Source of the DNA: Oscillospiraceae bacterium
Lineage (GTDB): Bacteria > Bacillota > Clostridia > Oscillospirales > SIG519
Length of the DNA stretch: 64,000 nt
Assembly (NCBI GenBank): GCA_015067255.1
Contig: SVMS01000002.1
Span: 62,001-126,000 of the forward strand
Direction of reading: 5' to 3'
Of this stretch, positions 2,214 through 52,998 are shown one piece after another (positions within the stretch are counted from its first letter, which is position 1; every line of letters begins with the position of its first letter). A program made the position numbers and the translations under genes. Under the pieces are notes generated by a model. It worked only from the letters and a program-made list of their open reading frames with translations, did not search any database and was not told where the DNA came from.

Positions 2214-2600
2214 TTGAAAGCTATGCAGGATATAAAGCGTCGACGAAAAAAGGCAATATTGTTTACTTTGATTGTTATTTTAATTGCAATTATTCTTACT
2301 TTAACAGCTAAATATGTAATATCCTTTCCCTGCGTTTTTTATAAGCTTACGGGGCTTTACTGTCCCGGCTGCGGAAACACAAGGGCGGCAATAGCACTTT
2401 TAAGCTTTGATTTTCCCAAAGCTTTTTCTTACAATGCGTTTTTCTTTTTTGAATTTTTCTATATAGTATGGGTTTATATTTTTTCCGTAATAAACTATAT
2501 AAAAAATAAGCGTTTTTCATACCATTCCCCCTCCAAGCTTTTTGATTGCCTGATGCTTGCAGCTTTTTTCATTTGGGGAATTGTGAGAAATTTTATTTAA
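2214..2600 (+). CDS. DUF2752 membrane protein
   Basis: 128 residues. After one TM segment comes FPCVFYKLTGLYCPGCGNTRA, whose CPxCGxTR core defines DUF2752 (PF10825), followed by two more TM segments separated by a basic loop. The CPGCG pair of Cys could bind metal or be redox active; the family function is unknown. Start is uncertain: TTG at 2214 or ATG at 2223, neither with a strong ribosome site. The stop codon lies inside the outer stem of the hairpin array that follows (2599-2872), so the array is effectively this gene's 3' UTR. Confidence 0.75.
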   Translation: MKAMQDIKRRRKKAILFTLIVILIAIILTLTAKYVISFPCVFYKLTGLYCPGCGNTRAAIALLSFDFPKAFSYNAFFFFEFFYIVWVYIFSVINYIKNKRFSYHSPSKLFDCLMLAAFFIWGIVRNFI

Positions 2601-2872
2601 AAAAATGCCGTTGTTTTGCGAGACTTCTCATAAGGAAGTCTCGCAGTTTTATTCGCCTAAAGGCAAGTTATATTGCTTCGCAGTTATATTATGCTTTTGC
2701 ATAGTGATATTCGGCTACGCCGAGTTTTATGGCGAATAAAATATCACTACGACCAGAGGGAGTAATATCGCTTTCACGAAGTGAAAATATCACTCTGTGC
2801 GTTAGCACAGAATATCACTCATTTTTCTTTCTGTTGTAAATGATAAGCACCCTTTTTTAACGGCATTTTTTT
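2599..2872. repeat. Hairpin array 1 (mirror-linker palindrome array) enclosed by a 14-bp outer stem
   Basis: Outer arms AAAAAAATGCCGTT (2599-2612) and its exact complement (2859-2872) enclose the block. Inside are a 10-bp stem hairpin at 2618-2644, a second long-range stem (2647-2657 with 2731-2741, TTTTATTCGCC), and small hairpins such as ATGCttttGCAT, TCGGCtacGCCGA, TTTCACgaaGTGAAA and CTGTGCgttaGCACAG. Linkers in the left half read AGTTATATT or AGTGATATT; linkers in the right half read AATATCACT, the reverse complement. No reading frame is supported. The outer stem equals the core of an ordinary terminator elsewhere (52968-52998), so the array appears to sit inside a terminator loop. Confidence 0.8.
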
Positions 2873-6651: not shown

Positions 6652-6850
6652 GTGAAGTTTTCGCTATTGCGAAAGTGAAGTTGCTGTGCAGTGAAGTTTG
6701 TGCAATACACAAGTGAAGTTAAGTTTGCCCATAACTTCGCCGTCAGGCGAAACTTCACTCATAAAGTGAACTTCACTATCGTAGATAGCTTCACTTGCCC
6801 AAAGGGCAAACTTAGTTTTAGCGTGTTCTCCGTTAAGGATAACACGCTAA
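6652..6850. repeat. Hairpin array 2 (linker GTGAAGTT / AACTTCAC)
   Basis: GTGAAGTT occurs at 6652, 6675, 6691 and 6713; its reverse complement AACTTCAC or CTTCAC occurs at 6751, 6769 and 6789. Between linkers are small hairpins: TTTCGCtattGCGAAA, TTGTGcaatacACAA, TTCGCCgtcaGGCGAA and TTGCCCaaaGGGCAA. AAGTTTGCCC (6721-6730) can also pair with GGGCAAACTT (6804-6813). A 10-bp stem hairpin TTAGCGTGTT/AACACGCTAA (6818-6850) ends the block 17 nt from the stop of the leftward glycosidase gene and may serve as its terminator. Translations through the block are low-complexity products of the repeats. Confidence 0.8.
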
Positions 6851-42803: not shown

Positions 42804-43165
42804 ATATCGCTGATGCGATATGATTTTAGTGAAGCTTGGGCTACGCCCAAGTGAAGCAGTGGCAAAACCACTGTGAAGTATTGTACTTCGCACAACATGA
42901 AGTTAAGTGTACCACTCACGCCCGCAGACACTTCACTTGCCAAAGGCATACTTCACGCACCAAAGGTGTGCTTATCGTACCGCAAGGTACACTTAGTTCG
43001 AAAAAGAGGTTTTTAATGATGCATCGGCTACGCCGATATGATGTTATGCTTCGCATAATGATGTTGCTCATTTCATTCGCAATGATGCGATGTTTGCCCC
43101 AAAACATTAGGCGAAGCCGACATCATTAGCGCAAGCGACATCATTTGCCGAAGGCAAACATCATT
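42804..43165. repeat. Hairpin array 3, two sub-arrays with different mirror linkers
   Basis: After a lead hairpin ATATCGCtgatGCGATAT (42804-42821), sub-array 3a (42829-43006) uses GTGAAG (42829, 42851, 42873) on the left and CTTCAC (42931, 42951) on the right, between CTTGGGctacGCCCAAG, CAGTGGcaaaaCCACTG, TGCCaaaGGCA, GCACcaaaGGTGTGC-type and GTACCgcaaGGTAC hairpins. Sub-array 3b (43016-43165) uses ATGATGTT (43038, 43058) on the left and GACATCATT or ACATCATT (43119, 43137, 43158) on the right, with ATCGGCtacGCCGAT, ATGCttcGCAT and TTTGCCgaaGGCAAA. Frames through it encode only repeat-derived text. It lies between the pnuC promoter and the tRNA terminator. Confidence 0.8.
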
Positions 43166-43198: not shown

Positions 43199-43276
43199 TG
43201 GGGTGGGTGATGGGACTCGAACCCACGATTTCCAGTGCCACAAACTGGCGCTCTAACCAACTGAACTACACCCACC
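43199..43276 (-). tRNA. tRNA-His (anticodon GTG)
   Basis: On the minus strand the cloverleaf begins at 43276 with the extra G-1, acceptor GTGGGTG pairing with CACCCAC, anticodon stem CCAGT/ACTGG with loop TTGTGGC, T arm GTGGG-TTCGAGT-CCCAT-type, discriminator C73 opposite G-1 and an encoded CCA (43201-43199). G-1/C73 is the hallmark of bacterial tRNA-His. Third in the Leu-Arg-His cluster. Confidence 0.95.
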
Positions 43277-43280
43277 ATAT

Positions 43281-43357
<77 letters not shown>

Positions 43358-43361
43358 ATAC

Positions 43362-43447
43362 TGGTGCGGATGACAGGAATTGAACCTGCACGGGGGTAAC
43401 CCACTAGATTCTAAGTCTAGCGCGTCTGCCAGTTCCGCCACATCCGC
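43362..43447 (-). tRNA. tRNA-Leu (anticodon TAG)
   Basis: Minus strand from 43447: acceptor GCGGATG with CATCCGC, anticodon stem CTAGA/TCTAG with loop CTTAGAA (anticodon TAG, reads CUA), a long class II variable arm (TGGGTTACCCCCG), T loop TTCAATT and encoded CCA at 43364-43362. First of the cluster. Confidence 0.95.
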
Positions 43448-52966: not shown

Positions 52967-52998
52967 AAAATGCCGTTTGCAAACTGCGAACGGCATTT
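52967..52998 (-). terminator. Terminator of the nfnA-nfnB-esterase-UroD operon
   Basis: AAATGCCGTT (52968-52977) with AACGGCATTT (52989-52998), 11-nt loop, overlapping the end of the UroD-like gene. Its stem equals the outer stem of hairpin array 1. Confidence 0.7.

Follow-up and report, generated by a model that had tools for sequence, protein, structure and literature searches.

Array in the terminator loop of the upstream gene

The window, a 64,000-nucleotide stretch of an Oscillospiraceae genome, carries an array of small hairpins directly behind a 128-aa ORF on its forward strand (Table 1). The array is closed by a 14-bp outer stem formed by AAAAAAATGCCGTT (2599-2612) and AACGGCATTTTTTT (2859-2872), which are 100% complementary in the inverted-repeat search, and the left arm begins within the stop codon of the ORF (2598-2600), as the initial annotation had described. 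That annotation had also equated the outer stem with the stem of an ordinary terminator at 52968-52998; ten of the 14 pairs are indeed common to both (AAATGCCGTT/AACGGCATTT), while the likeness does not extend to the remaining pairs.

Inside the stem lie a 31-nt terminal hairpin, H0, and six or seven smaller hairpins that alternate with short linker words, namely AGTTTTATT, AGTTATATT (twice) and AGTGATATT in the left half and AATATCACT (three times) and the deviant AATATCGCT in the right half. Exact AATATCACT occurs six times in the 64-kb window against 0.8 expected, a number reached in 0 of 100 shuffles, and four of these copies fall in the array. Folded as RNA, positions 2590-2880 gave -101.3 kcal/mol on the plus strand (z = -9.35) and -92.3 kcal/mol on the minus strand (z = -8.48), with no shuffled sequence as stable on either strand. 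Both the sequence and the folding energies (z about -9 on both strands) thus bear out a real array of hairpins and alternating linkers, with the linkers of the right half as reverse complements of those on the left. The ORF list holds no ORF of at least 80 aa inside the element.

Table 1. Parts of the array and its surroundings (positions in the window)
Feature	Position	Strand	Evidence
Upstream gene, terminator split; DUF2752-like per the initial annotation	2214..2600	+	ORF list, stop 2598-2600
Outer terminator stem, left arm: A-tract and ATGCCGTT	2599..2612	+	Inverted repeat I2; corresponding stems in related copies
H0 terminal hairpin followed by GTTTTATT; putative replacement terminator of the upstream gene	2616..2646	+	Terminator-like match (13 pairs and T-rich tail); position conserved in sister copies
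Word0 AGTTTTATT, outermost word on the left; belongs to P1	2645..2653	+	Alignment A1
P1 left strand TTTTATTCGCC	2647..2657	+	Covaries with 2731-2741
Local hairpin 1, GCC-TAAA-GGC; rival of P1 for the same left strand	2655..2664	+	Sequence; first hairpin of Rfam Gut-1
Left word AGTTATATT	2666..2674	+	Repeat search
Hairpin GCTTCGC	2675..2681	+	Alignment A1, covariation
Left word AGTTATATT, second copy	2682..2690	+	Repeat search
Hairpin ATGCTTTTGCAT	2691..2702	+	Alignment A1, covariation
Left word AGTGATATT	2703..2711	+	Repeat search, word count
Hairpin CGGCTACGCCG	2712..2722	+	Alignment A1, covariation
P1 right strand GGCGAATAAAA	2731..2741	+	Inverted repeat I6, covariation
Right word AATATCACT	2740..2748	+	Word count
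Hairpin ACGACCAGAGGGAGT; stem may contain tandem G-A mismatches, whereas most sister copies have a perfect hairpin	2749..2763	+	Alignment A1
Deviant right word AATATCGCT	2764..2772	+	Sequence
Hairpin TTCACGAAGTGAA	2773..2785	+	Alignment A1, covariation
Right word AATATCACT, second copy	2786..2794	+	Word count
Hairpin CTGTGCGTTAGCACAG	2795..2810	+	Alignment A1, covariation
Right word AATATCACT, third copy	2811..2819	+	Word count
Left-half Rfam Gut-1 match, sub-threshold	2644..2715	+	39.6 bits, cut-off 50, E 1.3e-6 on 291 bases
Right-half Rfam Gut-1 match, sub-threshold, opposite strand	2736..2820	-	38.0 bits
Element 3' tail; shorter than in own-genome L009/L011, with an eroded or missing terminal inverted repeat	2820..2858	+	Comparison with L009, L011
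Outer terminator stem, right arm with T-tract	2859..2872	+	Inverted repeat I2

Words, spacers and layout of the array family

Related arrays were collected by an unsupervised grammar scan that looked for repeats of one 7-mer on the left and of its reverse complement on the right. The scan returned two further arrays in the window and 79 in the fetched loci, some of which overlap; 20 shuffled windows and the shuffled loci gave no array. The array described above escapes so strict a scan, its left words being mixed. The two additional window arrays lie at 6652-6795 (words GTGAAGT) and 43015-43165. Two adjacent arrays, one GTGAAGT-type and one with AATGATG, occupy about 42925-43165, directly 3' of a minus-strand tRNA cluster (43202-43447).

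The common layout opens with a terminator-like hairpin and continues with four words and their hairpins, the long-range stem P1 and four reverse-complement words, again with hairpins; 4 + 4 is the modal word number among 52 non-redundant arrays, in all of which the linker symmetry is kept. About ten words are in use (GTGATAT, GTGAAAT, GTGAAGT, ATGATAT, ATGAAAT, GCGATAT, TCGATAT, AATGATG, AATGAAG and AGTTATA). The word is uniform within an array, with the right copies as its reverse complement, and differs between arrays even inside one genome, where at least six different words can coexist. Spacers are nearly all distinct, yet 83% of them fold, compared with 35% of shuffles. In P1 the first word on the left, together with its neighbour, pairs with the array centre; the stem is 8 bp or longer in 77% of the 52 arrays, compared with 16% when partners are taken from arrays with other words. 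Helical phasing of the words as sites on double-stranded DNA was rejected, as word spacing ranges from 13 to 47 bp (median 22) and phasing is weak (R = 0.17).

Covariation supports P1 and the small hairpins

Pairing was assessed in an alignment of 26 AATATCACT arrays including the window copy (A1). Of 37 predicted pairs in P1 and the hairpins, 21 show compensatory change; 92.3% of the cells are paired and 139 cells have changed on both sides. The covariation score is 0.446, against 0.122 in shuffled alignments and at most 0.067 with slid partners. One P1 pair illustrates this, as it is A-U in 14 sequences, U-A in six and C-G in six, and is broken in none. P1 and the small hairpins are thus supported by covariation.

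The initial annotation had proposed one branched superstructure in RNA or single-stranded DNA, which pairing of left with right words would hold together. In every array the words on the right are reverse complements of those on the left and change with them from locus to locus, as such pairing would predict; within the AATATCACT family, however, compensation is seen in only 4 of 934 cells under the linker-pairing model, the linker pairs that vary mostly break (in 12-13 of the 26 sequences at three pairs), and deviant words are matched by their nested partner in 0 of 25 cases in each direction. The covarying P1 and hairpins therefore stand as the branched part of that structure, whereas the mirror-symmetric linkers lack mutual compensation. 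A linker-paired superstructure is not supported and we regard it as very improbable, although the linkers might pair in many registers simultaneously. Since one-to-one pairing leaves the mirror rule unexplained, the rule is better explained by a factor that reads a short site both ways or by copying between words.

The arrays contain Gut-1, a candidate non-coding RNA

The linker rule had been thought to belong to no named family. Each half of the window copy is in fact a sub-threshold match to Rfam Gut-1 (RF01706), the two halves aligning to the full model (positions 1-77) in opposite orientations with 39.6 and 38.0 bits, below the curated cut-off of 50 bits. Loci with the same grammar elsewhere in the host genome reach 52-69 bits, and about 30 loci of that genome together give 43 Gut-1 half matches, four of them above the cut-off. 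Gut-1 was listed as a candidate ncRNA of "human gut only" in a 2010 paper (PMC2864571), the only one in the literature found to name the family. Like the arrays, the Gut-1 model has three hairpins separated by GUGAAAU-type linkers and the same order-wide distribution; unlike the model, the real unit has two inverted halves with P1, its linker word varies between loci, and copies occur by the tens in genomes, many of them behind tRNAs or in terminators. At 12 of the 20 best Gut-1 loci a second Gut-1 lies less than 120 nt away on the other strand, so that the published unit is one half, and Gut-1 is half of a larger, inverted, two-sided element. This gives an orphan "RNA" family a genomic context and corrects its unit to two inverted halves.

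Gut-1 matches were found in 31 of 59 genomes of the order (1-48 each) and in 3 of 300 phylum-wide genomes, two of which belong to Oscillospirales and one to a lineage outside the order. A search for the threefold AATATCACT grammar returned at least 115 stretches, and 79 of the 80 listed come from Clostridia, Oscillospiraceae or Bacillota assemblies, mostly from gut. The arrays are thus abundant in gut Clostridia assemblies, and since several Gut-1 matches lie at contig ends, they may break assemblies. One apparent relative in Planktothricoides (L256, 3960-4100) proved to be a plain tandem repeat of AAATATCACTGGCT. Carriage by phages was rejected, as just seven viral contigs match the AATATCACT grammar; a shorter ATTTCAC grammar was too unspecific in viral contigs.

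Probable insertion sites

Eleven of the 20 best Gut-1 loci begin 34-46 nt 3' of a tRNA or tmRNA gene. Highly similar cassettes lie behind the tRNA-Tyr gene of G037 and the tmRNA genes of G010 and G019, the likeness beginning at the CCA end; the two tmRNA cassettes are 97% identical over 240 nt and the tRNA and tmRNA cassettes 91% identical over 321 nt, in each case across different GTDB families. Conversely, one site can hold different arrays: the tmRNA 3' end carries three words (TGATAT, TGAAAT and AATGAAG) in three species of one genus, and the tRNA-Cys site carries different words in two sister species, with flanks of sister-species sites 92% identical where compared (G003/G027). A tmRNA flank with an array in G050 has none in the congeners G007 and G031; the G015 congener had no flank in common with the array site. 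At the GAPDH site of G027, 201 bp including the array are absent, but the junction is compound. A repeat of about 235 bp (about 22 copies in G015, 82-97% identity), apparently unrelated to the arrays, adjoins an array of that genome (L043, about 1824-2059) and occurs at other places in it.

A second type of site is the intrinsic terminator. Type A elements measure 338-389 bp and have conserved ends, GGCGTGATACTCTTAACGGAG... and ...CTCCGATAAGGACATCAC, while their 12 copies have 12 different flanks. In 11 of the 12 the two flanks are mutually complementary over at least 8 bp (mean 10.5 bp, against 5.9 bp when flanks are swapped), mostly with an A-tract on the left and a T-rich right side, so that the site without the element would read as an ordinary intrinsic terminator. 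Two copies of the host genome, L009 and L011, show the same terminator-flank pattern, and an outer stem score of at least 11 was obtained for 16% of 69 arrays compared with 5% in the control. With its 14-bp A-tract/T-tract stem the window copy agrees with this pattern, although its tail is shorter and its inverted ends are unclear. No target duplication was evident by eye at the 12 type A junctions, and among the loci examined there was no autonomous copy or transposase with the same ends; the sole candidate for an autonomous copy with type A ends was a chimera with an unrelated 125-aa ORF.

Location in a terminator loop had been recognised in the initial annotation and recurs in related elements, whereas the growth of the block in place, which that annotation had inferred, is rejected, as the same layout occurs at many unrelated sites, with conserved ends in other sub-types. 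For the same reason the window copy was more likely inserted than grown. A literature search on insertion into terminator loops found nothing fitting.

At the 3' side of trpS, four sister species (L444, L443, L092 and L446) have mosaic arrays at one site; within conserved flanks the right half has changed, with AATTTACCT-like words in G003 and AATTTCACT in the others. These mosaics suggest conversion of whole half-arrays. Words and element ends moreover assort independently, the same 3' module following at least five words, and both observations together indicate that gene conversion or module exchange also shapes the arrays.

Mobile DNA or functional RNA

Taken together, the window copy is probably a non-autonomous, MITE-type mobile repeat of about 246 bp (2613-2858), with a core modelled by half as Gut-1, and lies in the loop of the upstream gene's intrinsic terminator. 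Such an element would insert into intrinsic terminators or behind tRNAs and supply its own terminator. Its upstream end is the terminator-like hairpin H0, which, judging from its sequence, would work as a terminator and keep the gene terminated after the presumed insertion of the window copy, so that the neighbouring gene would be spared. The core appears to be selected to fold when single-stranded, presumably in DNA rather than RNA, into P1 and a series of small hairpins; the linkers between them, eight short and almost identical words of which four are direct and four inverted, would stay mostly unpaired. Tentatively, this folded core with its uniform words might be the recognition platform of the moving or copying machinery.

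Several observations fit this explanation less well. As words and ends assort independently, the words may be no part of the mobilising machinery. Clear terminal inverted repeats are missing from the window copy, insertions with identical ends are known for sister sub-types rather than for its exact sub-type, and no clean empty site for it came to light in the genomes compared, all of which lie outside the host's family. The change in the right half at trpS resembles gene conversion more than simple transposition.

An alternative is that the array is a functional structured RNA, as Gut-1 is classified in Rfam, acting in a 3' UTR or in read-through transcripts, with words that bind a protein or partner RNA. 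Publication of Gut-1 as a candidate ncRNA and the covariation, which places single-strand structure under selection, are in keeping with this. Arrays are also oriented relative to upstream genes: in 46 of 61 cases H0 lies towards the 3' end of a gene that runs towards the array, and in 15 it does not, the arrays lying a median of 36 nt behind genes. We suggest that this bias arises because an insertion that splits a terminator brings H0 as a replacement. In one strand orientation G-T mismatches outnumber A-C mismatches 8:1, but they are few, clustered in related copies and not independent, and this asymmetry was rejected as proof of RNA. The array starts at the base of the terminator-like hairpin, leaving no promoter space between H0 and the array, which is why Gut-1 need not be a dedicated RNA, and promoter-like sites are at chance level. 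The two strands fold about equally well, the presence of at least six words within one genome speaks against one cognate factor, and copies that are nearly identical are found 3' of different genes in different families. A functional RNA is therefore unlikely, and mobile DNA offers a testable alternative for Gut-1.

Comparison with known elements and candidate mobilisers

Like MITEs (reviewed in PMC10969869), the arrays are small, non-coding, dispersed in many copies, intergenic and strongly folded, and terminal inverted repeats are clear in sister sub-types (L009, L011 and type A), if eroded or absent in the window copy. They differ from MITEs in that no parent IS was found and no target duplication recognised, and in their insertion into intrinsic-terminator loops and their hairpin array with uniform words. 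The BOX and SPRITE elements of pneumococcus (PMC3049150) are likewise modular, folded and mobile-looking, and SPRITE is terminator-like; they belong to another organism, their modules differ by description, and inverted word arrays are not described there. We consider it possible, if still speculative, that the arrays form a hitherto undescribed class of mobile DNA of Oscillospirales that targets structures: it would recognise terminator hairpins and tRNA/tmRNA ends as insertion sites and carry its own terminator and an eight-word folded platform for recognition, the Gut-1 "ncRNA" being a misread half.

Group IIC introns target terminators. Such an intron was rejected here, as the window has no group II match in Rfam and the element no ORF of at least 80 aa.

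REP sequences in BIMEs combine a short head (GTGA) with hairpin units in alternating orientation and are associated with RAYT (Y1) transposases (PMC2817692), a resemblance that would make the arrays REP/BIME-like. The head and layout differ, however, Y1_Tnp is missing from many array-rich genomes (G003, G010, G023, G027, G041 and G058), and the Y1 genes of array-bearing genomes have no flanking array units. Mobilisation by RAYT is largely refuted by this distribution and by these flanks, and is highly implausible.

Large serine recombinases might move site-specific cassettes, at least the copies behind tRNA and tmRNA genes, but this seems rather improbable. The tRNA/tmRNA arrays end in a module of about 80 nt (J) that is also the end of an element in which three serine-recombinase ORFs lie side by side (L164) and of a type IIG RM gene, and copies of J flank cassettes in direct orientation. 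Against this, J is absent from the window copy and many of its copies follow other genes.

Module J (GAGTTCGAATTCATACGCAAAACTGCCGAAAATATCTTTTTTGTAGCCCATAGACA) is conserved in L164 (6599-6667) and also in L156, L144, L160, L134 and L138. It ends tRNA-type arrays, the triple serine-recombinase element, the type IIG RM gene and other cargo, and sometimes two direct copies flank an array. J looks like a shared recombination end and is a lead for the tRNA-type sub-type only. Directly 3' of tmRNA genes or of J, a short piece with WTNTYFFSGGFAVKVML was observed in L116, L105, L106, L109, L149, L151 and L144, and looks like the attachment-site scar of another element.
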